DNA of 64,000 nt from Desulfobacula sp. (GTDB lineage: Bacteria; Desulfobacterota; Desulfobacteria; Desulfobacterales; Desulfobacteraceae). Under the pieces are notes generated by a model. It was not told where the DNA came from, did not search any database, and saw only the letters and a list, made by a program, of their open reading frames with translations. The DNA lies in NCBI RefSeq assembly GCF_030145145.1, contig NZ_JAQYWD010000034.1:1-64000 (forward strand), in the 5' to 3' direction. Made by a program: the position numbers and the translations under genes. Every line of letters starts with the position of its first letter. Position 1 is the first letter of the stretch. This document shows, in pieces, positions 35,900 to 52,171 of the stretch.

Positions 35900-36474
35900 A
35901 CTGCGTGATTTCCAACTTAAGGCATATGCATCCATCAGGGAGCATTCTGATCTCACCGGTGGGGGATATCCCCTCTTGGATCACCGCCATCATTGCCGAC
36001 AGGATCAAGGCGATTTTTGGATTCAGAACCCGGGTTTCGCCGTTGCTGGACAACCTTTCTTTTGCGTATGATCAGAAACGCAACCAGTATTATTCCACCG
36101 TTATTTTAGAGGCACTGGCGGCCAGGGCACCCAAAGGCTGCATAAAACTTTTGGCAGTGACACGGGAGGATCTGTTTATTCCCATTTTGACCCATGTCTA
36201 TGGGGAAGCCCAACTGGGGGGAATTGCCAGTATTATTTCCATTGCCCGGCTCATGGCATATCCGGATGTCGGCTCCCGGGAAAAAAGCCGCGGCCGAATC
36301 ATCAAGGAAGCCGCGCATGAACTGGGGCATGCCTTTGACCTTCGGCATTGTGAAGATGACCACTGTATCATGCACTATTGTCGCAAGCTGGCGGATGTGG
36401 ACCTGAAATCAGATCAATTCTGCCGGTATTGTACGATTCTTTTGGCCGACTATATCAAGACCCTTGGGGGATAA
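35896..36474 (+). CDS. amzA: Archaemetzincin-type zinc metalloprotease
   Basis: The 192-residue protein opens at TTG overlapping the regulator stop; ATG 35926 (MHPSGSILISPVGDIP) is a plausible better start. The metzincin core reads HELGHAFDLRHCEDDHCIM, i.e. HExxHxxGxxH with the usual Gly replaced by Asp, followed by Cys-rich zinc-knuckle positions and CRYC near the end. Archaemetzincins are zinc proteases found in archaea, vertebrates and some bacteria; substrates are unknown. It is the second gene of the regulator cluster. Its 3' end overlaps by 20 bp the convergent GcvH-like gene. Confidence 0.88.
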   Translation: MNCVISNLRHMHPSGSILISPVGDIPSWITAIIADRIKAIFGFRTRVSPLLDNLSFAYDQKRNQYYSTVILEALAARAPKGCIKLLAVTREDLFIPILTHVYGEAQLGGIASIISIARLMAYPDVGSREKSRGRIIKEAAHELGHAFDLRHCEDDHCIMHYCRKLADVDLKSDQFCRYCTILLADYIKTLGG

Positions 36475-37375
36475 ATTTTTTTACCAGGGCTTTCCAGGAA
36501 ATTCCGGGAAGGTTGCCGAAAAGATCAGACACAAGGGTGCCGCCGTCAGCTGCCTTGACCTGGGTTTTTTCCTCAAGAAACGTGTACAGTCGGTGGACCT
36601 GCTGTTCCATAAATCCCCTGGAGGACTCCATGAACATCAATTGTTTAAGATCCTGTTTCAGGCCGGGACAATAAAGGATAAACATCCAGCCGTCCGTATA
36701 AGGGGACTGGTTGATTCGGCCGGGTGTTTTTCTGACCCGGGCATTCACCGCTGTGATGATTCCACTGACAGGGGATAGAAAACAAACGTCATGCCCCTGC
36801 CGGGACAGGGTGACGGCCGGCATGCCCTGTGTCAGCTTTTTCCCCATCAACGGGGCGGTAAATGTGTCAAATTCGCCCAATAACCTGCAGGCAAAATCAT
36901 CAATCCCAACGCGTACCATGCCCTGGTCTTCAATTTTGATCCAGGTGTGCCCCGGGTGAAGATAGTAGCCCATGGGCAGTGAAATGCCGTTGATATCCTC
37001 AAAGTTCACTGGTTTTAAAACGGTATGGACCTTGAACTGATCCTGAAAATACTGGTCAAATTCACAATCAGCGCATTGATAGGATTTCGGGCAGTTTTTA
37101 AATCCAATATGACCTTTCATGTGATGGATACAGGGCCGCTGGGCAGGGGGCAGTTTCCGGAGCCGCTCTTCCCAGAAAACAAAGCCCCTTTGTTTTCCTT
37201 CCACGGCGTTGCCTTGGTTTTTAAGGGTTTCATTGGCCCGGCAGACCTTGGTCAACGCCCTGTCAAACCGGCAGTCCATGCATAAAAAGTCTTTATAGCA
37301 GTGTTTTTTTTTGACCACCCCTGCCTGCATCCAGAGGCAGGCAGGTAAGGTCAATTGTTTTAATACAATATCCAT
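36455..37375 (-). CDS. Cys-rich GcvH-like protein (paralog 1)
   Basis: A 306-residue protein from ATG 37375 (RBS AAAGGA 9 bp before; the frame also opens from a TTG 21 bp upstream). Two N-terminal modules have identical spacing C-x12-C-x5-C-x2-C-x-F-D (Cys 13/26/32/35 and 82/95/101/104). A glycine-cleavage H-like domain follows (about 130-230: YLHPGHTWIKI, VRVGIDDFACRLLG, LSPVSGIITAVNARV, SPYTDGWMFILYCP). The lipoyl-lysine position holds no Lys (segment SRQGHDVCFLSPVSG), so it cannot be lipoylated in the usual way. A C-terminal helical region follows. The paralog is next upstream. A signalling or redox role is inferred from the two-component neighbours. Confidence 0.75.
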   Translation of the reverse strand: MDIVLKQLTLPACLWMQAGVVKKKHCYKDFLCMDCRFDRALTKVCRANETLKNQGNAVEGKQRGFVFWEERLRKLPPAQRPCIHHMKGHIGFKNCPKSYQCADCEFDQYFQDQFKVHTVLKPVNFEDINGISLPMGYYLHPGHTWIKIEDQGMVRVGIDDFACRLLGEFDTFTAPLMGKKLTQGMPAVTLSRQGHDVCFLSPVSGIITAVNARVRKTPGRINQSPYTDGWMFILYCPGLKQDLKQLMFMESSRGFMEQQVHRLYTFLEEKTQVKAADGGTLVSDLFGNLPGISWKALVKKFIPQGS

Positions 37376-37403
37376 GGGTGTCATTCCTTTGTTCAAATGG
37401 TCA

Positions 37404-38330
37404 TCAGGTCTTAAGAAAAGTTTGGGTCAGGTTTTTCCATCCCAGGGTGGGAAGATTGCCGTAGACATCACGGGTCAGAAATCCACCATCCGCACTCAGG
37501 GGACCGGTGACATCCTCTATCATTTCTTCAAGGGTGGTCACCTCCCGGCTTAGCCAGGCCTCACTCTTTTCATCTGCCATCAGGTGTTTGACTGCCCCTT
37601 TGATATCGGAATTATGAACCGTAAACAGCCACCCGTCCTGATAAGGCCGTTTTCCGGGAAGATCCGGAGCGGTTTTCACGGAAGGATTCACCCGGGTAAT
37701 CACCCCGTTGACCGGGGACAGGATATCGGCAAGGTTCTGGTTGCGCTGGATGCCCCAGCCGGCTTTGCCCTGGTTCAGCTCCTGGCCGATCAACGGTAGA
37801 TCAAACCCATCCGGTCCCCCCAATACCTTGAAGGCAAAATCATCCATACCCACCCGCATGATGCCGCCGCTGTCAACGCAGGTCCAGGTATGGCCGGAAT
37901 GAAAATAATACCCATGGGCAAGCTTGAATCCTTTTACATCCCCCATCTCCAACCGGGTATGGCCTGAGCCGGGGGACAGGCAATCCTCAAACAATTGATC
38001 AAACTCACACCTGTCACAATTATAATTCATGGGACAAGCCCGGTGATCCGTTCTGCCGGTCAGGGTATGGCGACAGGTCCTGTCCCTGCTGTCCCTCTGC
38101 CGCATGGCATCCTGCCAGGACAGATGTTTTCCCGCACTTGCAAGTTTTCCCATTGTTGCATCATATTTGCAGGAGGTGCAGTCATGATAATGGTTACAGG
38201 TCTTTTTGGAAACCACGCCTGCCTGCATCCAGATACAGGGATGCGGGCATTTATCTTTTCCAGATGGCCACAAGGTTGGGGTTTTTGAATAAGGGGTTTC
38301 TTTTGATTGGGTTTTCAGGGTCTCAGTCAT
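37404..38330 (-). CDS. Cys-rich GcvH-like protein (paralog 2)
   Basis: The 308-residue protein (RBS AAAAAGGAGG before ATG 38330) repeats the plan of its neighbour. It has two modules C-x12-C-x5-C-x2-C-x-[FY]-D at Cys 32/45/51/54 and 86/99/105/108, then a GcvH-like domain (YYFHSGHTWTCV, MRVGMDDFAFKVLGG, LSPVNGVITRVNPSV, PYQDGWLFTVHNSD), and a similar C-terminus ending near NLPTLGWKNLTQTF. The lipoyl-lysine segment reads RNQNLADILSPV, again without Lys. The two genes lie 28 bp apart and are a tandem duplication. The Cys modules may bind zinc or an Fe-S cluster; which is not decidable from sequence. Confidence 0.75.
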   Translation of the reverse strand: MTETLKTQSKETPYSKTPTLWPSGKDKCPHPCIWMQAGVVSKKTCNHYHDCTSCKYDATMGKLASAGKHLSWQDAMRQRDSRDRTCRHTLTGRTDHRACPMNYNCDRCEFDQLFEDCLSPGSGHTRLEMGDVKGFKLAHGYYFHSGHTWTCVDSGGIMRVGMDDFAFKVLGGPDGFDLPLIGQELNQGKAGWGIQRNQNLADILSPVNGVITRVNPSVKTAPDLPGKRPYQDGWLFTVHNSDIKGAVKHLMADEKSEAWLSREVTTLEEMIEDVTGPLSADGGFLTRDVYGNLPTLGWKNLTQTFLKT

Positions 38331-38774
38331 CTGGGGCCTCCTTTTTAATTCGGGTTTGTTTTCTTCTTGGTCTTTCCATGAATCTTAAGGACATATATAG
38401 CAAAAAGGAGGCCATCCGTTGTTTTGACAAGCATAATAATTGAACCGTCCTTTTTTCCCGGGCTGCTTCAGGGAGGATCGGACTTTTTTGAAAAACTCGA
38501 GAATTTCAGAAGATGGGGTTTTTTGCAACAACAGGGGGTGTCCTGAACCGGCAATGATACTGGAATCCTTTGCCAGGCACTGGGATAAGGGACCTGTTGG
38601 ATTTTGCCCCAGGCGTGTCGATATTTCCCCCAGTCCCCCCCACTGGTTTCCAAAAAGGGGTGTTTTCCCGGTGTCAGGAATCTGAAAGGAATTAGATCTT
38701 GCCCCCATACACGGTTCTATGGTAAAAATTAAAATCATTCCACGCTTTTTCACCCGTTTCAAAAGGAAATCATC
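38331..38774. other. 444-bp intergenic region
   Basis: This lies between the divergent GcvH-like gene (leftward) and the sensor kinase (rightward). It must contain both promoters. I see no RNA gene, clear sigma-54 box or strong repeat. The open frames crossing it have no recognisable protein features. Confidence 0.5.
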
Positions 38775-39989
38775 ATGACCCTTCCTCAAACTGAAATGGA
38801 AACGATCCTTAATGGTATCCGGGATTTTATTCTGATCATATCCCCTGATCGGGAAATTCTGGAAGTCAATGATGCCTTTTTAAAGCACATGAATTATGCC
38901 CGGGAGGATGTCCTAGGCCGGAAATGCCATGAAGTCTTCAAAGAAGCCACTCGGAAAAGCAGCAATTGTCATGAAAAATGCCCCCTGGAAGCAGTGATCC
39001 GTGAAAAGCGGCACTGCCAGACAGAATTGATCCGGCTGGGAAATGACGGCAACCCCAGGTACACGGAATTGACGATTTTCCCGGTCTGGGAGAAGAAGGG
39101 GAAAATTTCCAAATTCATTGAAATCAGCCGGGATATTACCCAGCGCAAAATTGATGAAAAGCAGAATCAGGATTATCTGATCAAAATGGTGGAGGACCGC
39201 ACAAGACAGCTGAAAGAGACCCATGAACGGCTGCTTCACCAGGATAAAATGGCCTCCCTGGGAAAGCTGTCTTCCTGTGTGGTGCACGAGATCAATAACC
39301 CGGTGGCCGGGATTTTGAACCTGGTGATGCTGTCCAAACGCATTCTCAAGGAAGATGAGATTAAACAGGACGAGCTGGATCTGTTTGATCAATACCTGGG
39401 GCTAATGGAAACAGAAATTCGGCGGATCGGTCGGATTGTCAGTAATCTTCTGGTCTTTGCCCGGCAGTCCAAATTTAAGGTGGTCAAGTTTGATGTGAAT
39501 GAGTTGATTGAACAGACATTGATCCTGAATTCAAATTTGTTAAAAATAAATAAAATACGGGTCATAGAAGAGCTTGAACATAACCTGCCGTTAATCAGTG
39601 CCTCTGAAGATCAACTCAAGCAGGTGATCATGAATCTGATTTCCAATGCAGTGGAAAGCATGTCAACGGCTTCAACGAAACGGTTGACCATCAAAACCTT
39701 TGGTAAACCTGAAAAAAAAGCCGTGGGAATTCAGGTGGCAGATACCGGCGCCGGCATCTGCCAGGAAACGATTTCAAAGATATTTGAACCGTTTTTTACC
39801 ACCAAGAAGAACGGCAAAGGGGTTGGACTTGGCCTGTCCGTGGTATATGGGATTATCAAGGAACATGGCGGCCAGTTGTATGTGGATTCAACACCGGGAA
39901 AAGGGACCCGGTTTTCCATCACCCTTTTCCAGGACTTTGATGGTAACAGAAAAGCGTCAGCATCATCTCCGCCCGGATCAGCCGGCTGA
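38775..39989 (+). CDS. PAS-domain sensor histidine kinase
   Basis: The 404-residue kinase has an N-terminal PAS domain (about 5-125, ILIISPDREILEVNDAFLKHMNY) with an extra Cys pair in SSNCHEKCPLEA that could hold a metal, a coiled coil (about 130-160), the phospho-His in SSCVVHEINNPVAGIL, and an ATPase domain with N box NLISNAVES, G1 VADTGAGI and G2 GKGVGLGLSVVYGII. There is no membrane segment. RBS AAAGGAAA precedes ATG. It is the likely partner of the sigma-54 regulator at 34556, with the GcvH-like pair between. Confidence 0.92.
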   Translation: MTLPQTEMETILNGIRDFILIISPDREILEVNDAFLKHMNYAREDVLGRKCHEVFKEATRKSSNCHEKCPLEAVIREKRHCQTELIRLGNDGNPRYTELTIFPVWEKKGKISKFIEISRDITQRKIDEKQNQDYLIKMVEDRTRQLKETHERLLHQDKMASLGKLSSCVVHEINNPVAGILNLVMLSKRILKEDEIKQDELDLFDQYLGLMETEIRRIGRIVSNLLVFARQSKFKVVKFDVNELIEQTLILNSNLLKINKIRVIEELEHNLPLISASEDQLKQVIMNLISNAVESMSTASTKRLTIKTFGKPEKKAVGIQVADTGAGICQETISKIFEPFFTTKKNGKGVGLGLSVVYGIIKEHGGQLYVDSTPGKGTRFSITLFQDFDGNRKASASSPPGSAG

Positions 39990-40010
39990 ATGATAAAGGA
40001 GCCTGTTCTT

Positions 40011-43000
40011 TTAATTTATTTTATTAAGAATTTTTTCAACTACTTTTTCTGCGGTATCACCAAACAGGGTTTCAACTTCCACCAGGTTAAGATATTTGTC
40101 ATCCCATTGAAAATTATCACTTTCAAGAATCCAGTCTTTGAGACGGTTGTATTTGCCGCCCAGGGCTTTTATTTTTTTCAAAAGCGGTACGTCGCTGGAG
40201 GGTTTAAAACAGATATTTAAAGACAGGATGTATTCAATGATGTTGGGGGTGGCAGGATTTGAAGAAATAACCGGAATGACCAGGATGTTTTTATTGTCTT
40301 TTCTGCCCTTCCCAATGTACACATTTCCCTCCCTGACAATGATATTTTTTGTTCCTTTAAGTCTGGGGTCTGTTTCTACTCTTGAGTGTTCATCTTTTAA
40401 TAAACCGGTTTTATTCTTTATTTTTATTTTGGTCTCCTGGGTCACTTCTCCTAAAAGGCTTAATCCTGAGATCTGGTAGAGAAGGGCGCCATTGATGCCG
40501 GCAATGACCTCCTGGAGATTTTTAATCACCAGGACATTTTTGTTGGTGATCTGGGCAATGTGAATATCATTGGCCACCAGTTCACTAAAGACAAGGCCTT
40601 CAAATTTTTCACTGATTCTGCTGGTGCCGACGGTGACTGTTTTGGCCTGGTGCTTGATGGCATCCACCGGCCTTGCCAAGGTGTTAATGGCATGGCCAAT
40701 GGTATCGAAAAAGGTCTGTAACATGTTGGAAGGGGTTCCCTTTGTTTCAAAATCAATTTCAAAATCTGAAACCGGTAATCTGCCGGACAAATATTTTAAC
40801 AGCAGTGTGAGGTTGGCCACCGTATCCAGCCCCATGGCAGCCGGAAATTCACCTTGCCGCCGTTTTTTTGAAAATTTGTTATAGAAGAGGGCAATGGTTT
40901 CCCTGAATTTTTTTTCCAGGAGAACTTCATATACATCATGTCCCATGGAGGTATATTCGTCTAAAAGCTCCTGTATTTCAGCCTTTCCTTTGTACATGAA
41001 TCTGGACCCCTCATTGATGGCAAGGGCCGCGTAATACCCCCATATGTGTCCGACAAGGGTGTTCAGGACAGGGGCAAAGTGTTCTTTTGTCGCAGGAATT
41101 TTAAATACATCCCGGGCATAAATGTCAAACCGGTCTTCTCCAATGGTGGTGATGACCACTGGTGTGGCCTTGTGCGCATGGAAAATAGCGGTATCCTTGA
41201 TGATATCGCCCAACACACTTTCCCGTGTGCTGGCAGCACAAATGATGATTAAGGGTTCACTGGACAGGTCAATATGTTTTTTATCTTCAATAAAGTCCGA
41301 TGAAATGGTTTTATAGCAAAGTTCACTGAGTTTGATCCGGATTTCATCTGCTGATGTTTTGTTTGATCCGGATCCCACAGTGGCCCAGTATTGTTTTGCG
41401 ACGGCAAGCCGGAACGCTGAATCTTTGATCTGATCTTTCATTCCCAGAATGGTTCTCATCTTATCCGGCAGGCTCATGATTTCGTTGATCTGTTCGGTAA
41501 TAAACTCACTGGATCTTGTTTGGGCAATGCCGGCCAAGTGGAGGCCTAAAATAGCCCCGGCAGTAATTTGTGAATAAAATGCTTTTGTGGATGCCACAGA
41601 CATTTCAATGTCACGGCCGGAGCTGGTGTATAACACACCATCGGTTTTAAAGGTCAGATCAGAATCCCGCCTGTTGACGATGGCCAGTGTTTTTGCACCA
41701 CAGGCTTTGACCATGTCCACTGTTCGGTTGGTATCGGTGGTGGTGCCGGACTGGCTGATGGCCACCACAAGTGTGTTGTTCATGGAGCATTCAGCACCTT
41801 CCCCTTCTACCAGACAGAATCCGGAAAGCTCTGATGATTTTAAGGCTCTGGTATCAATCCCCTTATCACCCAGGTAGACATTCAACAGATCAGAGCAGGC
41901 CTGGGCAGCTATTCCAGCTGTGCCCTGACCGATAAAATAGACTTTTTTGATCCGGTCATTTTTAAAGTCCTGTTCCAGGGATGATGGGATGACCGTCTCA
42001 TCAAGACATGTGGTAAACAGGTGAGTGCCCGGGGATTGTTTGACTTTGTTTTCCAGGGTTTTTTCCACCGAGCCCGGGGATTCTGAAATTTCTTTTAAAA
42101 AATAGTGAGGGAAGTTTTGTCGGTCAATATCCCGGGATGTAATCTGGCTTGTGAGCACCTGATTTTCTTCCAGGTTGATCAAGGTATTATCATAGTAGAA
42201 GGACCGGATACCGGATACACCGCCTTCTGATCGCTGGTCAAGAATGACAATCTGGCCTTTATCCTCTCCGTTGAGCTTGATGTAATCCTGGGTTTCCTCG
42301 ACAATGCCGTACAATTCTGATGCAGCAATATAATGATCCTTGGCAATCCCGACAAAAATCGCCTGGCCGCTTCCCTTCTGGGCTAAAAACAATTTTCCAG
42401 GGGCTAAATCGGCATGCATGCTGATGGCATGGGAGCCTTCAAAATCATTGACCGCCATCCTGAACGCATCTTCAATGGGGTGATGTTGTTTCAGGTAATG
42501 CTCGATTTGAAGGGGGATCAGTTTAGTGTCTGTATTAATATCGGTATGGATTTTATCATACCTGGCCTCATACTCTGTTTTTAATTCAAGATAATTGTCA
42601 ATATCACCGTTTAAACAGACATGGATGATGCCTGATTTGCCGATTTCTTTAACCGTGGGGGTGTTGTCCTGGGGATGGCAGTTGGCCAGGGAAATGTCTC
42701 CCACAGATGCCCATCGGGTGTGAGCGGATACGGAATTTGCCACAAAAGGATATTGGGCGATCAACTGGAGCAAAAGATCGTTTTTAATCTGGCTGCGGAT
42801 AAACGTGACATTGTCCCCCAGGGCACCGATCTCCGCTGCAAATTTATAGACAAAGGAAATGGTAACCAAATGCTCACCATTTTCCGGAAACGTATCATTT
42901 ATGGTAATACTGTTATTGGCCAGGATCAGGTGGTTTGTTCTCTGTTTCAGCCGTTCCGAAAGGCCTTCCTTGATCAGATCCTCTCTGAAATTTTCAAACC

Positions 43001-43709
43001 CCTGTTTGGGAAAGGTGAGAATGACGGATATTCCGGCAGAATCCCTTCCCCGGACTTCAAGCCGGTCAATACTGTTTAACACGGCATTTATCCGTTTAAA
43101 GACCGTTAATGCCCCCGTGTTTGCTGAAGCTGCCAGACCCGTGGAAAGATTGCCAATGGCAGCGATGTTATCTATAATTTCCTTTTTAAGGCACCAGTGA
43201 ATATCCCGAAGTTTTTCAAGGCGCAGAGAAATCGTATCAACATCTGAGGATGAAAGTGTTGAAATCTTTCGTTTAAACAAACCGGTTTGATCTTCAATCA
43301 ATTGTTCCATGTTCGTTATAATTGAAGCGAGCCGTTCTTTTTTTTCTTTGTTGAAATAAAGATCTAAAAAAATATTTTCCTGCTTGAATTCCTGGCAGCG
43401 TTCAAATAACCGGTTTAAAAAATCATCACCGCAAAGAAAGTCGTTGCAGATGGTGTCAGCAGGGGAGGACAGGCAGTTGTCTTTTAAAGAAAGGGCCATT
43501 TCGTTTATTTCGTGTAAATGAAACGCCTGGGGAATGCTGTTTCCCTTAAAGGCAACAAAGGCAGAAATACCGCAGGACAAGGTATTGGGTTGATCCGGAA
43601 AAAAGATGAGGGTATTTTCCCGGGCAGTGGTTATGGGTTTCCCAAATTCAATGGTCAGTGACATTAGTTGTTTAATCCGGTTCAAAAAAGCGGTTCCATA
43701 CATCATCAT
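40011..43709 (-). CDS. Giant GlmS-like protein (GATase II + two SIS domains + C-terminal extension)
   Basis: A 1232-residue protein from ATG 43709 behind GAGGGGAAG; normal GlmS is about 610. GATase II motifs are all present: internal Cys46 in LSCGISAF, RGRDSAGIS, AHTRWASVGDISLANCHP, LNGDIDNYLELK and SDTKLIP. But Cys46 follows about 45 residues that would have to be cleaved for an N-terminal nucleophile, and about 150 extra residues sit between Cys46 and RDSAGIS. FLKEISESPGSVEKTL leads to SIS 1 (VAISQSGTTTDT, VASTKAFYSQ) and SIS 2. About 330 C-terminal residues, from near TSMGHDVYEV, match no domain I know. GlmS makes glucosamine-6-phosphate from fructose-6-phosphate and glutamine; activity here is unproven. 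Confidence 0.75.
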   Translation of the reverse strand: MMMYGTAFLNRIKQLMSLTIEFGKPITTARENTLIFFPDQPNTLSCGISAFVAFKGNSIPQAFHLHEINEMALSLKDNCLSSPADTICNDFLCGDDFLNRLFERCQEFKQENIFLDLYFNKEKKERLASIITNMEQLIEDQTGLFKRKISTLSSSDVDTISLRLEKLRDIHWCLKKEIIDNIAAIGNLSTGLAASANTGALTVFKRINAVLNSIDRLEVRGRDSAGISVILTFPKQGFENFREDLIKEGLSERLKQRTNHLILANNSITINDTFPENGEHLVTISFVYKFAAEIGALGDNVTFIRSQIKNDLLLQLIAQYPFVANSVSAHTRWASVGDISLANCHPQDNTPTVKEIGKSGIIHVCLNGDIDNYLELKTEYEARYDKIHTDINTDTKLIPLQIEHYLKQHHPIEDAFRMAVNDFEGSHAISMHADLAPGKLFLAQKGSGQAIFVGIAKDHYIAASELYGIVEETQDYIKLNGEDKGQIVILDQRSEGGVSGIRSFYYDNTLINLEENQVLTSQITSRDIDRQNFPHYFLKEISESPGSVEKTLENKVKQSPGTHLFTTCLDETVIPSSLEQDFKNDRIKKVYFIGQGTAGIAAQACSDLLNVYLGDKGIDTRALKSSELSGFCLVEGEGAECSMNNTLVVAISQSGTTTDTNRTVDMVKACGAKTLAIVNRRDSDLTFKTDGVLYTSSGRDIEMSVASTKAFYSQITAGAILGLHLAGIAQTRSSEFITEQINEIMSLPDKMRTILGMKDQIKDSAFRLAVAKQYWATVGSGSNKTSADEIRIKLSELCYKTISSDFIEDKKHIDLSSEPLIIICAASTRESVLGDIIKDTAIFHAHKATPVVITTIGEDRFDIYARDVFKIPATKEHFAPVLNTLVGHIWGYYAALAINEGSRFMYKGKAEIQELLDEYTSMGHDVYEVLLEKKFRETIALFYNKFSKKRRQGEFPAAMGLDTVANLTLLLKYLSGRLPVSDFEIDFETKGTPSNMLQTFFDTIGHAINTLARPVDAIKHQAKTVTVGTSRISEKFEGLVFSELVANDIHIAQITNKNVLVIKNLQEVIAGINGALLYQISGLSLLGEVTQETKIKIKNKTGLLKDEHSRVETDPRLKGTKNIIVREGNVYIGKGRKDNKNILVIPVISSNPATPNIIEYILSLNICFKPSSDVPLLKKIKALGGKYNRLKDWILESDNFQWDDKYLNLVEVETLFGDTAEKVVEKILNKIN

Positions 43710-43741
43710 TTCTTCCCCTCTCATCTAAACGGTTTTGCCCA

Positions 43742-45106
43742 TCACAATTGTGCGGTGACAGCGGTTTTTTTAAAATATTTTTTTAAAATATTTTTTGCAT
43801 AAGTCCCGGCTCTTGTCCCAATATATTTCCGATGGCCGACAACAACGGACAGGGCTATTTTTTTAGGTCCTTTTTTTTCAGCTCCGAAACCGGTGAACCA
43901 GTCGTATTTAACCGTGTGCGCCCTGTTGTAAAGGGACCCGGTCTTCCCGCCAATCAATAGTTTTGAAAGAACGGCATCTTTGGAAAACCCTCTGAAAGAT
44001 TTTCTGGCAGTCCCTTTTGAGATGGTTTTTTCCATCAACTGCATCATGGTGGCAGCCGTTTCCGGACGTATGGCGTTTTTATAGGCGGTTTCTTTGTTCG
44101 CGTAGATGACCGCGCCACTGGCATCTGTTACATGCTCAACAATACTGGGCAGCATGATATTGCCGGCATTGATAATGGCCGAGGTGAGCATGGCACCAAA
44201 TACCGGGGAGATTGTGGTCTCATGATTAAATCCGCATCCAAGTTCAGCCAGGTGGTAGTCTTTGCTGTTGGTTTTAAATGCACCTGAAACAAAGGTAATT
44301 TCCGAGTTGACGACCTGGTTGAACCCAAAAGCGTCTGCATAAGACTCCAGTTTTTCTTTTCCCAGGCTATTTTTCCCGATTTTCCCGAATATCGGGTTTA
44401 CGGATTGTGCAAACGCACTGGAAAAAGAAATTTTATACGAGTATTTGTTTTTTTTCCCCTTGAGCTGGCGTTTGTATAATGTGTATTTATTCCCATTAAA
44501 GAACAATGGCGTTTGAGGCGTATAGCCTAATGTTTCAATTGCTGCGGAGGCGGTTATGATCTTGAAGATGCTGGCTGCGGGATAGTTGGATTCAATACAG
44601 GGGTTGGCATCGGGATTTTCAAGATCAAACCCTGTCATGGCAATGATTTTACCGGTATTTGCTTCCATGACCACAAAGGCGATCCGTTGGGGTTTTCCCC
44701 GGGTCAGGGTTTTGAGCCGGTCCAACACCGACAATAAATATTCCTGAAGATCAACATCGATACTGGTGGTAATTTTATAACGGGTTTCCGGGGCATCCAC
44801 AAACAAGGTGTTTTTATCCGTTTGGATAAAATTCGTCGTGCCGATCATATGGCTTAATTGATTTTTTGACAAACGGGTTTGTGGTTCAGGTGTTTCCGGA
44901 ATGCTGGCAGTCAACTCATTTTTGATCGGACCATCGCTCCCGTAAAAACAGATGCCCGCAATCAAAAGCAGGAGGATCGCCAAACCGACCAGTATTTTTG
45001 CCGTTTTAGAAACCCATCGGGATTTTCTTTTGTTGATCAGATATCCAGATTGAAAATTCCGCCAGGCGGGTTCTTTTTTATCGATATACAACGGAACCCC
45101 TAACAC
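43742..45106 (-). CDS. Penicillin-binding transpeptidase-domain protein
   Basis: The 454-residue protein has one N-terminal membrane segment (about 36-56) and a periplasmic transpeptidase domain. The active-site triad motifs are SxxK as SIFK (in YPAASIFKIITASAAIE), SxN as SVN (in AQSVNPIFGKIG) and KTG as KTGS (in LLIGGKTGSLYN). This makes a DD-transpeptidase of class B/FtsI-PbpA type, but without the N-terminal dimerisation domain. It starts at GTG 45106; no RBS is visible. It sits between the GlmS-like gene and metG, so cell-wall precursor and crosslinking genes are adjacent. Confidence 0.88.
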   Translation of the reverse strand: MLGVPLYIDKKEPAWRNFQSGYLINKRKSRWVSKTAKILVGLAILLLLIAGICFYGSDGPIKNELTASIPETPEPQTRLSKNQLSHMIGTTNFIQTDKNTLFVDAPETRYKITTSIDVDLQEYLLSVLDRLKTLTRGKPQRIAFVVMEANTGKIIAMTGFDLENPDANPCIESNYPAASIFKIITASAAIETLGYTPQTPLFFNGNKYTLYKRQLKGKKNKYSYKISFSSAFAQSVNPIFGKIGKNSLGKEKLESYADAFGFNQVVNSEITFVSGAFKTNSKDYHLAELGCGFNHETTISPVFGAMLTSAIINAGNIMLPSIVEHVTDASGAVIYANKETAYKNAIRPETAATMMQLMEKTISKGTARKSFRGFSKDAVLSKLLIGGKTGSLYNRAHTVKYDWFTGFGAEKKGPKKIALSVVVGHRKYIGTRAGTYAKNILKKYFKKTAVTAQL

Positions 45107-45163
45107 GGATCGTGTCTTTGACCATATCCATTACCGGCAATGGCGCAAAGGTCATAAAAGCCA

Positions 45164-47092
45164 TCATTTTACAGGATTTCCCGGTGAAAGTTCTTTGTCA
45201 AAACCAGAAAGTACCAGCTTTTTTTTATGGGTTGCGGCAAGGATCATGCCTTGAGAAATCTCTCCCATAAGCGTTGCTTCTTTTAAGTTGGCAACCACGA
45301 TGACCTGTTTGCCGATGATGTCTTCCGGGGCATAATCCTTTGCAATACCCGCAATGACCTGCCTTACCTCAGCACCCAGATCCACCGTAAGTTTTAAGAG
45401 CTTTTTGGATTTTTCGATTCGTTCCGCTGTCATGACGATCCCGGCCCTTAAATCAATTTTTGCAAAATCATCAATGGTGATCTGCTTTTTTAATGCCGGT
45501 TTAAACGCTTTGGTGATGATGGCAGGGGCCTGGGGTCTGGTTTTATCTGTATCAATCCTGGGAAATAAACTGTCTGGGGTTGCAATGCAGGTTCCTTTCC
45601 GGGTCTGCCCCCAGGGAATGGTTTCCGCCAACGTGTAAAACCCATTATCCTTTTTTGCCATGCAAAGGGTTTTCTGCATTTTATAGGATGTCGCCGGCAT
45701 AATGGGATAAATCAGGCAGGAAACGACCCGCAACCCCTCGATCAAGTTATAGAGAACGGTTTCAAGGATCGGCGTAAGGTCGTCATTCTTGGCTAAACTC
45801 CAGGGCTCATTTGTATCAATATATTTATTCATGATACTGATAAATTGCCAGATGGCCCCGACACCTTTATGAAATTCACACACCGACATGGCCTGTTGAA
45901 ATTTGTCAATGGCAGTCTTTGCATCAGATGCCAGAGACAGGGATTTTTCTTGTTGAATGTGTGTGTCCGGTTCTCTTGCTTCACCCTTGAAATATCGCTG
46001 GTTCATGGAAAGGATTCTTGAAAAAACATTTCCAAGATCATTGGCAAGGTCTGAATTGATTCTGGACACAAGGGTTTCTTCTGTAAAATTGGCATCCAGG
46101 CCAAACACCATTTCCCTCATGAGAAAGTATCTGAACGGATCCACTCCGTATGCCGCGGTTACCTGCAGGGGGTCTGTGACATTACCGATACTTTTTGACA
46201 TTTTGCTGCCTTTGACATTCCAGAACCCGTGGACATTTAAGCCCTTATAAATCGGTATACCGGCAGCTTTCAGCATGATGGGCCAGTAAATACCATGGGG
46301 TTTGATAATGTCTTTTGCCACAAAATGGCGGGTTGTGGGCCAGAATTTTTTGAACAGTTCCCCATCCGGGTATCCCAACGCTGAAATATAATTTACAAGG
46401 GCATCAAACCAGACATAGGTGACATACGCTTCGTCAAAGGGCAGGGTGATACCCCATGTCAGTCGGGATTTCGGCCGGGAAATGCAGAGGTCTTCCAAGG
46501 GCTCTTTTAAAAAAGAAAGGATTTCAGTCCTGTATTGCGCCGGTTGGATAAAATCCGGGTTGGTTTTAATATGGTTGATCAGCCACGCCTGGTATTTGCT
46601 CATTTTGAAAAAGTAATTGGATTCTTTGATCACCTCGGGAGCTACCCCATGGTCCGGGCATTTGCCATCAACCAGCTCTCTTTCCTGGTAAAAGCGTTCG
46701 CATCCAAAACAATATAGCCCCTCATAGCTTGAAAAATAAATATCCCCGGACGCATGGATTTTTGAGAGAACCTGTTTGACCACCTGAATATGCCCGGGAT
46801 CGGTTGTGCGGATAAACCGGTCGTTATTGACGTTCAATACCGGTAGCAGATCCTGAAACAGACGGCTGATCTTGTCTGCATATTCTTTGGGGGTTGTTCC
46901 CTGGGTTTGGGCAGCCTGAACAATCTTATCTCCGTGTTCATCTGTTCCGGTTAGAAAAAATGTTTCATGGCCATCCATCTGTTTGAATCGGGTTGAAACA
47001 TCAGCAGAGATGGAGGTATAGGCATGCCCCAGATGGGGTTTGGCATTGACATAATAGATGGGGGTTGTAAAATATTGTTTTTGGGTGTTCAT
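45164..47092 (-). CDS. metG: Methionyl-tRNA synthetase
   Basis: The 642-residue class I synthetase has the HIGH-type motif (PHLGHAYTS), zinc ligands (CFGCERFY and CPDHGV), and KMSKS as SKMSKSIGN. Its C-terminal 100 residues (FAKIDLRAGIVMTAERIEKSKKLLKL) are the OB-fold tRNA-binding domain found in many bacterial MetRS. It charges tRNA-Met and initiator tRNA. It overlaps ricT by 4 bp. Confidence 0.97.
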   Translation of the reverse strand: MNTQKQYFTTPIYYVNAKPHLGHAYTSISADVSTRFKQMDGHETFFLTGTDEHGDKIVQAAQTQGTTPKEYADKISRLFQDLLPVLNVNNDRFIRTTDPGHIQVVKQVLSKIHASGDIYFSSYEGLYCFGCERFYQERELVDGKCPDHGVAPEVIKESNYFFKMSKYQAWLINHIKTNPDFIQPAQYRTEILSFLKEPLEDLCISRPKSRLTWGITLPFDEAYVTYVWFDALVNYISALGYPDGELFKKFWPTTRHFVAKDIIKPHGIYWPIMLKAAGIPIYKGLNVHGFWNVKGSKMSKSIGNVTDPLQVTAAYGVDPFRYFLMREMVFGLDANFTEETLVSRINSDLANDLGNVFSRILSMNQRYFKGEAREPDTHIQQEKSLSLASDAKTAIDKFQQAMSVCEFHKGVGAIWQFISIMNKYIDTNEPWSLAKNDDLTPILETVLYNLIEGLRVVSCLIYPIMPATSYKMQKTLCMAKKDNGFYTLAETIPWGQTRKGTCIATPDSLFPRIDTDKTRPQAPAIITKAFKPALKKQITIDDFAKIDLRAGIVMTAERIEKSKKLLKLTVDLGAEVRQVIAGIAKDYAPEDIIGKQVIVVANLKEATLMGEISQGMILAATHKKKLVLSGFDKELSPGNPVK

Positions 47093-47901
47093 CGTCTGGG
47101 GGATCCTGTTATTGATTCGTTCAGTTGCTGGATGGTTTTTTCGATTTCCGTATGATCCTCTAACCGAACGGTGATGCTTTCTTTTAACACATTCTGGCGG
47201 ACCACTTTTCCTTTGCCCTCTTCTAAGGTGATGGATTTTCCCAGTTTGGGCATCTGGCGTTTAAGGCTCTTATAGGTTTCATTTTCAAAGGTCAGACAGC
47301 ACATTAACCGGCCGCAAACCCCTGAAATTTTAGTGGGATTCAAAGACAGTCCCTGCTCTTTTGCCATCTTTATGGAAACCGGCTCAAACGTGTGCATAAA
47401 AGAGGAACAGCAAAGCTCTCTTCCGCATTTGCCAACCCCCCCACAATGTTTAGACAGATTGCGAATTCCCACCTGGCGCATTTCAATTCGAATACTGAAT
47501 TCTTTTACCAGCAGCTTGATTAATTCTCTGAAATCAATTCTGCCATCGGCTGTGTAGAAAAAAGTCAACTTGTTTCGATCAAAGGTGCTCTCAACACTGA
47601 ACAGGTTCATTAACAGACCGATATCAGTGATACATTGAATACAAAAAGTGAACGCTTTTTTTTCAAGCGTTTGTATTTCCTCTCTTCTAAGAAAGTCTTC
47701 TTTGGTGGCAATACGGACAATCTGTTTTAATTTTTTTTCAACAGTTTCAACTTCAACGGGTGGTATGGCAATTTTACCAAACCCTAAACCCTGTTCAGTT
47801 TCTACAATTACAGCGGTGCCTTGTTTCAGTACAAAAGCACCACTGTTAAAATCATATATTTTTCCTGCTGTTTTAAATTTAACACCAGCAACTTTAACCA
47901 T
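47089..47901 (-). CDS. ricT: PSP1/RicT-type protein
   Basis: The 270-residue protein starts at ATG 47901 (RBS AAAGGAAC), with the frame open nine codons upstream. It has the PSP1 C-terminal domain: FFYTADGRIDFRELIKLLVKEF, IEMRQVGIRNLSKHCGGVGKCGRELCC and NPTKISGVCGRLMCCLTFE. The clustered Cys residues probably bind an Fe-S cluster as in Bacillus RicT (YaaT). The metG-ricT-holB gene order is common in bacteria. It overlaps holB by 8 bp. Confidence 0.92.
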   Translation of the reverse strand: MVKVAGVKFKTAGKIYDFNSGAFVLKQGTAVIVETEQGLGFGKIAIPPVEVETVEKKLKQIVRIATKEDFLRREEIQTLEKKAFTFCIQCITDIGLLMNLFSVESTFDRNKLTFFYTADGRIDFRELIKLLVKEFSIRIEMRQVGIRNLSKHCGGVGKCGRELCCSSFMHTFEPVSIKMAKEQGLSLNPTKISGVCGRLMCCLTFENETYKSLKRQMPKLGKSITLEEGKGKVVRQNVLKESITVRLEDHTEIEKTIQQLNESITGSPRR

Positions 47902-48946
47902 AAACACCCGTTCCTTTGTTCGTAACAATTTTAAGGAAAAATCTATCCAATGTTAATCTGAGCGTACTGTTTGCGGTTACCCTTTTTTCTGTTTCATAAA
48001 GCATTTTTATCCATTCTAAAAAGTTATGGGAGGGTACCCGCTGATTAATATCGGCAAAAGTATCAAAAAAATCAAGGTTAACTATTTTTTTGGGATCAAA
48101 TTTAAAAATCATCAGATCCCGGAAAAAAGTGGTTAGAATGGCCATTGTGTAAGGCATAAGATCGGGGTCACGGCTTAACCGTTGTGACAGCATCAACCCG
48201 TTTGATATGCCCCTGGCCGGTTTTGTTCTGATCATACTTGCCAGGGTATCCAGTAACCATAATCGCCGTTTGATCCAGTCGACCTCTCGTTGTTCTGTAT
48301 CCTGGTTTACATACATCATGGCCCTTTTCAGATCAGCATCGGCTGTTCTTGATGCAATATGGGCAAGGGGGTTGTCAACGTTGAAATGCTGGATCAGATG
48401 TTGCTCAATGACCGTGTCCGTCAGGGGCTTGAATCTGATCTTACGACATCTTGAAGCAATGGTTGGCAAAAGAAAAGATACCTTGTGGGCAACAAGGATG
48501 AAAAAGGTCCGTTCCGGCGGCTCTTCAAGCATTTTCAGCAGTGCATTCTGGGCCTGACGGTTCATCAGGTCTGCCGTTAAAATTAATACCATCCTGAACC
48601 TGGCCTCATTGGGCCTGGAAGAAAGGGTTACCCCCATTTCACGAATCTGGGATATGGAAATTGATTTTTTCCCCTGTTGAAGGGTCAGACACAGGATATC
48701 GGGATGGCTTTTGGCATCAATTTTGCGGCATGACGTGCAATGGTTGCAGGCAAGGTCCATCCCGCTCAAACAATTACATCCCTTTGCAAACAAATATGCG
48801 GCTTGTTTTCTTCCGGTATTCTCACTCCCGGAAAAAAGAAACGCATTGGGGATTTTTTTTGTCTGAAGGATATGGTTTAACTCCAGGAGGACGGTTGCTT
48901 GGTATTGCAGGTGATCAAAATCAGACATGGTTTGATCCATACCCAT
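47894..48946 (-). CDS. holB: DNA polymerase III delta' subunit
   Basis: The 350-residue clamp-loader AAA+ protein has an altered P-loop (FSGSENTGRKQAAYLFAKGC), a zinc module with Cys in CNCLSGMDLACNHCTSC, and the SRC motif (IASRCRKIRF). The altered P-loop fits delta', which does not hydrolyse ATP. It loads the beta clamp with DnaX and HolA. It starts 4 bp after the HU/IHF stop; ATG 48946 is used, with two further Met (residues 3 and 7) possible. Confidence 0.9.
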   Translation of the reverse strand: MGMDQTMSDFDHLQYQATVLLELNHILQTKKIPNAFLFSGSENTGRKQAAYLFAKGCNCLSGMDLACNHCTSCRKIDAKSHPDILCLTLQQGKKSISISQIREMGVTLSSRPNEARFRMVLILTADLMNRQAQNALLKMLEEPPERTFFILVAHKVSFLLPTIASRCRKIRFKPLTDTVIEQHLIQHFNVDNPLAHIASRTADADLKRAMMYVNQDTEQREVDWIKRRLWLLDTLASMIRTKPARGISNGLMLSQRLSRDPDLMPYTMAILTTFFRDLMIFKFDPKKIVNLDFFDTFADINQRVPSHNFLEWIKMLYETEKRVTANSTLRLTLDRFFLKIVTNKGTGVYG

Positions 48947-48949
48947 GGG

Positions 48950-49225
48950 TTAATAATCCACTCGCTCCTTGAGCTCTTTCCCACATTTAAAAAATGGCAA
49001 CCGTTTGGGCGGTATGGTGACTTTTTGACCGGTTTTAGGATTTCTGCCGGTATAGCTTTTGTACTCTTTGATATGAAAGCTGCAAAATCCCCTTATTTCC
49101 ACCCGTTCCCCTTTTGCAAAGGATTCCGCCAATGAGTCGAAAAATATTTTAATGATTTCTGAGGCCTCGGATTTTGTCAGGTTTGCCCGCTCTTTTAATG
49201 TGGAAATTAATTCAAGTTTATTCAT
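48950..49225 (-). CDS. HU/IHF-family DNA-binding protein
   Basis: The 91-residue protein starts at ATG 49225 behind AGAGGACG. The pattern MNKLELISTLKERANLTKSEASEIIKIFFDSLAESFAKGERVEIRGFCSFHIKEYKSYTGRNPKTG spans residues 1-66 and is typical of HU/IHF, with the arm GRNPKTGQKVTIPPKRLPFFKCG. It bends DNA as a dimer; alpha or beta type cannot be decided. It sits between holB and a NusG paralog. Confidence 0.94.
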   Translation of the reverse strand: MNKLELISTLKERANLTKSEASEIIKIFFDSLAESFAKGERVEIRGFCSFHIKEYKSYTGRNPKTGQKVTIPPKRLPFFKCGKELKERVDY

Positions 49226-49307
49226 ACGTCCTCTTTCTATAATGAAGGGTACAATCTCGTTGGTTTTTACAATGGTTCTAATTAAGATTTGATAAAAAGT
49301 CAAGGGG

Positions 49308-49832
49308 TTATGCTAATAATTCAGGGAGTTTTTCAACATTGTCTTCTGATATATTCACTCCGGCATACTGCCCTAGAACAGTGATTTTGATAACAACGCG
49401 GCCCTTGCCTCTATAGGTGATGAACTCTCCCTTTGCCCCTGCCATGGGACCTTCTAAAATCATTACAGGGTCACCCTTTTTCATTCGAATCGTTGTTCCG
49501 GTAATCAAATCCATATTTGCGCTTGTCAGAATTTTCAGGGATTCAACCTGGGTTGAGGGTATGGATAACGGTCCGGATGTATTGCCTAAAAGTCTGACGG
49601 CCCCGATCGTTTTCAGGATATTCAGCTGGAAGGCCGGTTCAAACGTGGATTTTACAAAAATATATCCCGGGAAAAGCGGCCGTTCTATCATGAGTTTTCT
49701 ATCTTTTCGTCGGCTTTTCTGTCGGGTTGTGGGTAAAAAGGCTTCGATTTTTTTTTTAACCATACTCGTGTAGACGGTTTGCTCAAAGTTGCTTCTGGTC
49801 AGAAGCGCAAACCAGTTTAATTTTTCAATCAT
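49308..49832 (-). CDS. NusG-paralog transcription elongation factor (RfaH/UpxY-like)
   Basis: The 174-residue protein has a NusG N-terminal domain (WFALLTRSNFEQTVYTSM, RPLFPGYIFVK) and a C-terminal KOW domain (IRMKKGDPVMILEGPMAGAKGEF). Its position next to lptD is not the usual secE-nusG operon, so it is probably a specialised paralog that antiterminates one long operon, as RfaH and LoaP do for polysaccharide genes. It overlaps lptD by 4 bp. The target operon is unknown and may be outside the window. Confidence 0.88.
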   Translation of the reverse strand: MIEKLNWFALLTRSNFEQTVYTSMVKKKIEAFLPTTRQKSRRKDRKLMIERPLFPGYIFVKSTFEPAFQLNILKTIGAVRLLGNTSGPLSIPSTQVESLKILTSANMDLITGTTIRMKKGDPVMILEGPMAGAKGEFITYRGKGRVVIKITVLGQYAGVNISEDNVEKLPELLA

Positions 49833-52075
49833 TTTGTGCCCAACTCTCCGATGCCATGAAGATTTATTAGAAAGGTGATACTCTGTTCGTCCTGGGAGTC
49901 TGCAAAATAAAGATGAAACGTCCAGCAGGATTTTTTCAGGGATAATCCGGCCTGTGTTTCCAAGGTATTGTTGTTCTTGAGGTTTTTTTCAATCGAAGTA
50001 TATGCGGTGAATTCATCTGTGAAGGTGACATTGACTTTGGCGTACAGCGATTCTGACAGACTGCCGGCATATCGATATTCCGTCCTTAACTGGTCACCCC
50101 GGTTGTCTTTGAGGGTGTTCCCGATGTTAAAAGAATTAAACTGGTTGTCATAGGGAGACCAGGAAAGATCCATATCAACACGGATAAAATCGTTTAAGGG
50201 AAGCTCTGTATCAAGGGCGATATCTGAAAACGGGTGTGATTCGTGGTCCCTTTCCTTGTTGATATCATAACTTTGATAGAGCCTGATATACGCAAAATTG
50301 CGGTAGGTGAGGACCTCTTCTCCCTCAGGGGTTAAACTGGATTTCCGGGAAGTGAAATTTTGAATCAACGACCAGGTGATCTGATTTTGTTCCTCAATCC
50401 TGTCTAAGTCATCAAAGTAAGGCAGGTCATCTTGAAAGATATCCGGGGTGAAGGCATAGTCTATTTCCGGGATGATCTCATGCTGGATTTTATCTGCAAA
50501 CGCGGTATTGGGATTAAAGATCCTTGTAAGTTTTGTAGACAATAATGCACCGATATCATACATCTGTCGTGTTCTGAGACTGTCTGAATGACCATTGATA
50601 TCCGTGAAATCATTGGTATGCCAGGCGGTTTGCCGGATACCAACGGACGGCTCAAAATGAACAGAATTGCCCAGTTTTATCGGTAGATATATTTTGGGGT
50701 AGATGTCGGTTCGCTGGCCGTTTACAAGCGTTGAGGTGGTGTCTTTCCTGTAAAAAGAACGATACTCGCTATCCAGCGAATAATAGAAGTTTGAAGCCCC
50801 GATTTTTTCTTTTGCAGCGTCAAACTGAATGCTGGGCAGCGTCTGCAGGGTGGTGTCGGCCGTATTCTGCCGCCGGGCAGAAACATTGTCATACCATACG
50901 GCATCGGCATTGAATGCATAAGTAGACCAGGATTTACTGATATTCAGCCGGTTTTTTCGGATCGTATCATCATATTCATCCAGGTCCCGGCCAAACTCTT
51001 TTTCATAATAGGCACTGGTTTCAGTGTACCCGGTAAATCCATCTTTAAATTCCTGAAGATAATCTTCATCACTGACCACGTCGATATCCAGCTTTGCCGT
51101 AACCCCATGGTCAAAGTTCTGGTTGTGTTTCATTCTGAACCAGAACCGGTCGGTATTGGTTCTCTGGGGGGTTTCAGAAAAACGATAATCTTTTGTTTGA
51201 TCTGTTCCGTCATCAATCTTGTCATCTTCGAGCACATCCAGGAACATGGACCCCTTTGACGTGTTGTCCAGGATATATCGGTATTCAGCCCCCAGTTTTG
51301 TGCCCCGATCCGTCATGTAATCGGTATAAAATGTTGCATCAGAACTTCTTGATATGGCGATGAAAAAAGGCTGTTCAACCTCAAATCCCTTTCTGTCGGA
51401 GGAAGTGATTCGCGGGGTTAAAAGACCGGTTTGTCGTTTGGTCTGGACGGGGAATATCAGAAAAGGACTATAAAGGGTGGGGATTTTTTTGGCCCAGAGA
51501 ACGGTATGCTTTGCAACGCCGTATCCTTCAACAGTCACTTTGATGTTTTCGCCGGTGATTTTCCAGTCGGGTGAGTCGCCTGGGCAGGAGGTGATGGATC
51601 CTTTATCCGCACTATAGGAAAACCGTCCTGTTTTCTTGATGTTTTCACCCTGGACATAGAAATTATTTTTTTGAAGGTAAATGGTCCCTTTGTCAATGGT
51701 GCCGATCTGTGTTGATAGATTGATTTGCATCGCATTGCAGGAAATGGAGTCTTCTCCGGATATAAACAGCACATGGCCCTGGGCTGATGCATCCTTTGTT
51801 TTGTTTGAAAATTCAACATAATCTGCTTCAAGACGTGTTTTTCCGCCGGTTATGAAAACATTGCCTTCGGCAATATACAGGTTTCGTTGATTATCAAAGG
51901 TTACGGTCCGGGCGGAGATATGCCAGGAAATCTCTTTTGGATTTTGAGACAGGGCATTTGCGGCTGCAGGTCTTTTGATTGAAATAAAGAGCATAAAAAA
52001 AACAACGGCCGCTAAAAATGACGGGTGGTTTTGCCTAAACCAACAGAGCATGTTCTTTCCAGTAAAAAATTGCAC
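49829..52075 (-). CDS. lptD: LPS-assembly protein LptD
   Basis: The 748-residue protein begins with a signal-like hydrophobic segment (about 15-33; ATG 52051 with GGAAAG may be the true start). An OstA/LptA-like domain follows (residues about 45-140, VEFSNKTKDASAQGHVLFISG) and then the large C-terminal beta barrel (RQTGLLTPRITSSDRKGFEVEQPFFIAI onward), which is rich in alternating strands. LptD with LptE inserts LPS in the outer membrane. There is no LptE gene next to it. The Cys residues of E. coli LptD disulfides are not conserved here. Confidence 0.92.
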   Translation of the reverse strand: MQFFTGKNMLCWFRQNHPSFLAAVVFFMLFISIKRPAAANALSQNPKEISWHISARTVTFDNQRNLYIAEGNVFITGGKTRLEADYVEFSNKTKDASAQGHVLFISGEDSISCNAMQINLSTQIGTIDKGTIYLQKNNFYVQGENIKKTGRFSYSADKGSITSCPGDSPDWKITGENIKVTVEGYGVAKHTVLWAKKIPTLYSPFLIFPVQTKRQTGLLTPRITSSDRKGFEVEQPFFIAISRSSDATFYTDYMTDRGTKLGAEYRYILDNTSKGSMFLDVLEDDKIDDGTDQTKDYRFSETPQRTNTDRFWFRMKHNQNFDHGVTAKLDIDVVSDEDYLQEFKDGFTGYTETSAYYEKEFGRDLDEYDDTIRKNRLNISKSWSTYAFNADAVWYDNVSARRQNTADTTLQTLPSIQFDAAKEKIGASNFYYSLDSEYRSFYRKDTTSTLVNGQRTDIYPKIYLPIKLGNSVHFEPSVGIRQTAWHTNDFTDINGHSDSLRTRQMYDIGALLSTKLTRIFNPNTAFADKIQHEIIPEIDYAFTPDIFQDDLPYFDDLDRIEEQNQITWSLIQNFTSRKSSLTPEGEEVLTYRNFAYIRLYQSYDINKERDHESHPFSDIALDTELPLNDFIRVDMDLSWSPYDNQFNSFNIGNTLKDNRGDQLRTEYRYAGSLSESLYAKVNVTFTDEFTAYTSIEKNLKNNNTLETQAGLSLKKSCWTFHLYFADSQDEQSITFLINLHGIGELGTK

Positions 52076-52171
52076 ATCAATTAAAATTATTGTATAAAGC
52101 CATTTTATACTTTAAAAGTCAAGTCTGAATGAAGGGCTTGGATAGATCACAGGGCAGAGGGCAAATATAAA

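Follow-up and report, generated by a model that had tools for sequence, protein, structure and literature searches.

The window analysed here, a 64,000-nucleotide stretch of Desulfobacula sp. DNA (contig NZ_JAQYWD010000034.1, positions 1 to 64,000), encodes on its reverse strand a double-length relative of glucosamine-6-phosphate synthase (GlmS), the enzyme of the first committed step to cell-envelope amino sugars. Judged from sequence comparison, this long GlmS is very probably the housekeeping glucosamine-6-phosphate synthase of its lineage, made as a precursor whose N-terminal extension would be removed before Cys51, the predicted N-terminal nucleophile (Ntn) of the glutaminase domain. Across the phylum, the long form replaces the short GlmS, with one coexistence seen. 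If true, this would be a new way for GlmS to gain its N-terminal nucleophile, and a class-wide replacement by an enzyme of twice the usual length.

A divergent GlmS with a translated N-terminal extension

The gene (window 40011-43724, reverse strand) is one intact frame of 1237 codons counted from the upstream ATG, in a genome of completeness 100 and 89 contigs. The first-pass annotation had described an oversized GlmS-like frame of 1232 residues, with the glutaminase Cys at position 46 rather than 2 and about 150 residues inserted after it. All three statements hold; the count of 1232 starts at the in-frame ATG at 43709 (codon 6 of the 1237-codon frame), and from the upstream ATG the same Cys is residue 51. 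The frameshift or fusion error that it had named as a refutation was looked for and does not apply, because relatives at about 39-83% identity have unbroken frames of comparable length and the same arrangement of parts.

The TIGR01135 (glmS) model matched residues 309-902 of the window protein (E=5.1e-70, 236.6 bits), and a PDB sequence search returned E. coli GlmS and human GFAT-1. Profile-profile comparison of the long forms with canonical GlmS gave E 5.7e-88, and E 3.6e-88 when the 8 canonical rows included E. coli GlmS. Pfam reported one SIS stretch, with GATase_6 and GATase_7 barely above their cut-offs. The whole two-SIS isomerase region is spanned by TIGR01135 and by a fold match, in which VIA-align placed the mature model on GFAT/GlmS isomerase domains with Z about 29 (mature residues 480-856, precursor about 530-906).

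Catalytic positions were counted in 83 full-length long forms at 22 positions aligned to E. coli GlmS, which we take to be the catalytic set, as we do most of their roles. Eighteen of the 22 are invariant and identical to E. coli GlmS in 83/83 long forms (C1, R26, H71, R73, W74, H86, N98, G99, D123, T302, Q348, S349, T352, V399, S401, K485, E488 and H504). The S347 equivalent is Ser or Thr, and the T76 equivalent is always Ser. Moreover, the AKTVTV motif of the GlmS C-tail occurs in all 83, internally and not at the chain end, and its Lys (the K1028 equivalent) is kept in every one; the 8 canonical GlmS sequences end in AKSVTVE (7) or AKTVTVG (1). Passages of two papers (PMC7948480, PMC8041777) name Cys2, Lys485/Glu488, Trp74 and the C-tail. 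The first-pass claim of about 330 unknown residues behind the second SIS domain was right in length but not in "unknown", as the C-tail RPVDAIKHQAKTVTVGTSR lies inside them. On these alignments, the long protein is best filed as a divergent GlmS that would work like GlmS yet scores under the curated family cut-off.

The extension is present in 73 of the 83 relatives, and the other ten start with Met/Val-Cys and fall into three groups on the tree. The extended label was given for an [FSL]P pair anywhere in the 16 residues before the Cys, not at a fixed place; at fixed distance from the Cys, the 73 extended forms have Pro at -8 (73/73), Phe at -9 (68/73) and Gly at -23 (64/73). None of the 73 extended forms has a start codon immediately before the Cys, whereas 10/10 of the others do. 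Over the last 28 extension codons, synonymous change (pS, 0.68-0.88) was well above nonsynonymous change (pN, 0.19-0.32) in 7 comparisons with relatives, and the extension is therefore translated and constrained as protein. These comparisons used relatives with a mature length of 1187 and left out rows L01*/L02* except L029; the omitted rows are mostly duplicates of named loci, L014, L016, L021 and L026 not being duplicates.

A quick maximum-likelihood tree built from the mature parts shows three changes of extension state, all three forced by starred branches, and none of 500 shuffles scored as low. The tree carries support only from the Shimodaira-Hasegawa-like approximate likelihood ratio test (SH-aLRT) and a midpoint root, and leaves out identical copies and frames with a mature part <1080 residues. 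Because canonical GlmS is Cys-2, the simplest account is one gain with losses in L127 and in L069/L071/L075/L076; an ancestral extension lost three times has the same cost on the tree. No extension remnant was seen by eye in the DNA upstream of six Cys-2 loci, five f82 loci lying outside that check. These five (L115-L119, family code f82) form a deep long-form branch of 1137-1170 codons with Cys-2 starts, and GTG directly precedes the Cys in 3/5.

The feature common to all long forms is a Cys able to end up first, and the natural Cys-2 relatives are built-in controls for the propeptide reading. In the extended forms, the translated extension ends at the Cys nucleophile, as in propeptides of the PurF/GltB type, and its best explanation is a cleavable propeptide that would expose Cys51, as in PurF.

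Distribution and alternative explanations

A search for a normal GlmS, proposed in the first-pass annotation, was run with TIGR01135 on the window's own genome and found nothing over the cut-off. The long GlmS was the best match, followed by a 536-codon frame whose Cys region is PurF-like; the long GlmS is the only full GlmS-type protein found in this genome. Classical NagB was not found there with TIGR00502, SIS-type deaminases not having been searched singly. With the window protein as query, 55 of 58 relative genomes gave a match, the only one in G039 being a 614-codon canonical GlmS; G007, G029 and G054 matched neither the window protein nor the long-form profile. In the same 58 genomes, only G039 exceeded the TIGR01135 cut-off.

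In a phylum sample of 394 genomes, TIGR01135 placed 318 over the cut-off and matched 374 at 1e-45. Of the 56 genomes between these limits, G219 and G224 (at E about 1e-111 and 1e-123) each gave a pair of matches that look like split canonical genes; the other 54 matched weakly, at 1.6e-50 to 6.5e-73. All 54 weak-match genomes were hit by a long-form or tail profile: the 36 outside the class all match the long-form profile (G173 in two pieces on two contigs), and the 18 inside it all match the tail profile. Run on 64 genomes, the long-form profile matched 42 (the 36 weak-match ones and, weakly, 6 canonical ones) and did not match 22. The tail profile was present in 231 of 241 class genomes of at least 90% completeness, a set in which every genome listed belongs to one order; four of the ten genomes without a tail are over the GlmS cut-off (G039, G365, G557, G559) and six are not. 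Among 80 phylum-sample genomes with canonical-type matches (18 with two), just one also holds the tail, and from this count we conclude that the long form replaces canonical GlmS. All 14 control genomes had a canonical GlmS over the cut-off (TIGR01135 search only). Because the curated model scores the long form under its cut-off, genomes of the class can look GlmS-less.

Several observations weigh against taking the long protein for the cell's propeptide-bearing GlmS. Its 236.6 bits do not reach the curated equivalog cut-off of TIGR01135 (418 bits), the S303 equivalent is Ala in 83/83 long forms, and the H77 of the E. coli Q-loop is not kept (V, I, M or N). The residue at -1 varies (S 19, C 19, N 15, F 9 of 73), and the extension changes at the pace of the insert (insert pN 0.22-0.30), both outpacing the catalytic parts (pN 0.04-0.11). 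The frame G000:C49, of 346 codons, has a weak SIS-type match. Twenty of the 394 phylum-sample genomes have no match at 1e-45, all among the 22 unmatched by the long-form profile, and six class genomes (G054, G458, G459, G460, G464, G527; 91-98% complete) showed no long form and no full canonical GlmS, with one partial match in G527; assembly gaps or a further variant may account for these six. G215 has both a canonical GlmS and the long form, its tail lying in a 1277-codon frame, and is a candidate for a replacement caught under way or for a recent transfer. We must also note that we know of no GlmS with a propeptide, and none of the titles and abstract starts listed in searches of open-access texts describes such a GlmS or the long form.

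The low score, the S303A exchange and the two forms in G215 would suit a paralogue acting on another sugar, with glucosamine-6-phosphate supplied from elsewhere. We consider this very unlikely, given that nearly every genome with the long form has it in place of canonical GlmS, that the isomerase-site positions and the C-tail are kept, and that NagB TIGR00502 finds no match in the window's own genome. A quite unlikely alternative is an inactive glutaminase, which would leave an ammonia-dependent glucosamine-6-phosphate synthase or a sugar isomerase. The Cys is indeed internal in 73/83 relatives, its processing is deduced from sequence, and the Q-loop His is lost; yet a dead domain should drift, and the equivalents of C1, R26, R73, W74, H86, N98, G99 and D123 are invariant in the 73 extended and the 10 Cys-2 forms alike. 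The first-pass annotation had offered a propeptide or an inactive amidotransferase. Comparison favours the former, through the Cys-2 relatives (10/83), the unchanged glutaminase residues of the extended forms and the constrained extension. It leaves the latter unsupported, because those residues show no drift and the search of the genome turned up no second full GlmS.

The extension itself could be explained in two other ways. If translation started beside the Cys, the upstream codons would be untranslated and the extension an annotation artefact; in the window, a TTG is found two codons ahead of the Cys, and some ATG, GTG or TTG occurs within 12 codons upstream in 33/73 extended forms. This is barely credible and already largely refuted by the lack of any start codon at -1 (0/73), the excess of synonymous change, the Pro exactly at -8 in every extended form, and locus L046, where the extension's ATG and the stop codon of the preceding gene overlap. 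By eye, the extension of many relatives opens with a basic, hydrophobic part, as would be expected of a targeting segment, a membrane anchor or a lipoprotein signal in place of an Ntn-type propeptide. However, a lipobox-like triplet precedes the Cys in 1/73 extended forms, a Kyte-Doolittle 19-residue mean of 1.6 is reached within 60 residues upstream in 1/73 (L110), and the conserved part of the extension abuts the Cys, all of which makes a targeting role highly improbable.

Domain layout and genomic context

Structure prediction of the insert and tail, suggested in the first-pass annotation, gave a helical insert and a tail made of a helical linker, the C-tail and an alpha/beta domain (Table 1). 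The models were built from 22-23 alignment rows, and the full-length one is of modest confidence, with a predicted local distance difference test score (pLDDT) of 63 and a predicted template modelling score (pTM) of 0.50. Long helices were predicted for the insert, with a block pLDDT of about 69-90. Across the aligned stretch of its 33-row alignment, no residues other than C, G and one Asp are invariant. A PDB profile search with the insert gave 34 weak matches, of which the best had E 0.0021 and many were helical proteins of designed or coiled-coil type. For the inserts and tails of 33 members, Pfam at E<=1 found no family in more than 1/33 for either, and the PDB profile search with the tail gave 0 matches. 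The tail fold is tentative because pLDDT spans 51.7 to 79.4 over five models. The best VIA-align match of the C-terminal domain was 7jsr_A, a large glutamate dehydrogenase (Z 8.7, root-mean-square deviation 5.1, 168 aligned, 10% identity); PAS/GAF/sensor chains scored below it, at Z 5-6, and Foldseek gave a best E of 0.022, with nothing below 0.02. The modelled domain is thus at most weakly PAS/GAF-like, and a sensor-like role for it is a suggestion only. The insert and the C-terminal domain are two conserved additions that are now directly testable.

Table 1. Coordinates of the long GlmS gene, its parts and related loci (window positions unless a genome is named)
Feature	Position	Strand	Basis or remark
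Long GlmS gene	40011..43724	(-)	1237 codons + stop; single open frame
N-terminal extension, residues 1-50, putative propeptide	43575..43724	(-)	constrained as protein; Pro at -8
Cys51, predicted Ntn nucleophile (E. coli GlmS Cys1)	43572..43574	(-)	invariant 83/83; aligned to E. coli Cys1
About 150-residue insert in glutaminase domain (about residues 61-211)	43092..43544	(-)	predicted helical
Remainder of glutaminase (GATase) domain, about residues 212-530	42135..43091	(-)	Pfam, TIGR01135, profile alignments
Isomerase region, two SIS domains, about residues 531-905	41010..42134	(-)	Pfam SIS (one stretch), TIGR01135, fold match
Helical linker, residues 908-1017	40674..41003	(-)	tail models
Internal GlmS C-tail RPVDAIKHQAKTVTVGTSR, residues 1018-1036	40617..40673	(-)	K1028 = E. 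coli K603
C-terminal alpha/beta domain, residues 1043-1237	40014..40598	(-)	AlphaFold2 (AF2) of tail, best pLDDT 79
Penicillin-binding-type transpeptidase gene	43742..45106	(-)	PF00905; ends 17 bases upstream of long GlmS gene
G215 locus	G215:C29:21768-22748	-	only genome seen with both forms

The tail was also considered, and rejected, as the supplier of a missing GlmU acetyltransferase. Short GlmU also occurs beside canonical GlmS (G365, G068, G069, G083, G134) and full GlmU beside long GlmS (G123, G146, G330, G347, G413, G428); since both mixed combinations occur, GlmU length and GlmS form are not tied. The genome's own GlmU (L133:4915-5664, contig C67) is a 249-codon uridyltransferase half with no acetyltransferase half. 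GlmU was over its cut-off in 23 of 80 genomes tested (56/80 with long GlmS), and another acetyltransferase probably acts in many of these genomes.

Upstream of the transpeptidase gene lie MetG, PSP1, HolB, two short genes and LptD. A transpeptidase relative is upstream in 19 of the 20 close loci with enough upstream DNA (24 named loci), with two genes intervening in L050; the exception is L046, whose upstream gene looks like a CMP-KDO synthetase. None of 6 more distant loci (1-3 kb of upstream DNA) shows transpeptidase-type neighbours, so this neighbourhood is a feature of close relatives; it agrees with a role in supplying amino sugars to the envelope and is no proof of one. At gathering scores, no Rfam family matched window 38000-53000, hence no glmS ribozyme was found in it. 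Promoter-like sites numbered 12 (9.1 expected) and terminator-like sites 4 (7.0 expected); 231 plasmid records matched, 0 covering 80% of the query. Elsewhere in the window, positions 52172-54457 (+) encode a cysteine-synthase-type PALP domain fused to a cysteinyl-tRNA-synthetase catalytic domain with a HIGH motif that looks degenerate by eye, and at positions 36455-38330 (-) two paralogues lie in tandem, with an N-terminal part that looks Cys-rich by eye and a domain of the glycine-cleavage-H type.

Proposed mechanism and comparison with known amidotransferases

In the mechanism that we propose, the long GlmS would be translated as a precursor, and a cut immediately ahead of Cys51 would take off roughly 45-50 residues. 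As in PurF, the Ntn fold would most likely make this cut itself. The cut would free the Cys51 alpha-amino group, allowing the glutaminase domain to release NH3 from glutamine. With this NH3 the SIS domains, together with the internal C-tail (K1028), would convert fructose-6-phosphate to glucosamine-6-phosphate, which would feed peptidoglycan and lipopolysaccharide (LPS). The helical insert and the C-terminal domain would be additions, probably for assembly or regulation. We infer the enzyme activity, the cleavage and its autocatalytic nature, and the role of the added domains. It is possible, though on balance doubtful, that the long form is throughout the class a self-activating essential enzyme, in which a conserved propeptide and a ligand-sensing domain behind the internalised C-tail unite maturation and feedback in one chain.

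Precedents exist for both ways of exposing the Cys. PMC7056826 reports autocatalytic cleavage of PurF propeptides, and PMC7948480 the need for Met1 removal to expose Cys2 in GFAT. In the window's own genome, the PurF-like protein has a 13-residue leader after Met. The propeptide of B. subtilis PurF has about 11 residues, and PurF has a synthase domain different from that of GlmS. GltB, the large subunit of glutamate synthase, likewise belongs to the class II amidotransferases and has a propeptide some tens of residues long; it differs from GlmS in its synthase domain and product.

The long GlmS shares with PurF of the B. subtilis type a class II Ntn amidotransferase domain and an N-terminal propeptide, here putative, ending at the Cys (PMC7056826 for PurF), but its extension is about 50 residues long and conserved. 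With E. coli GlmS and human GFAT-1 it shares the Ntn glutaminase, the SIS domains and a C-tail with the catalytic Lys. It differs from them in being twice as long, in placing the Cys at 51 behind an extension, in a predicted helical insert of about 150 residues, in a C-tail that is internal and followed by about 200 more residues, and in having Ala for S303 and a score under the TIGR01135 cut-off. Taken together, these likenesses and differences suggest that the protein is best filed as a propeptide-bearing long variant of the known GlmS.

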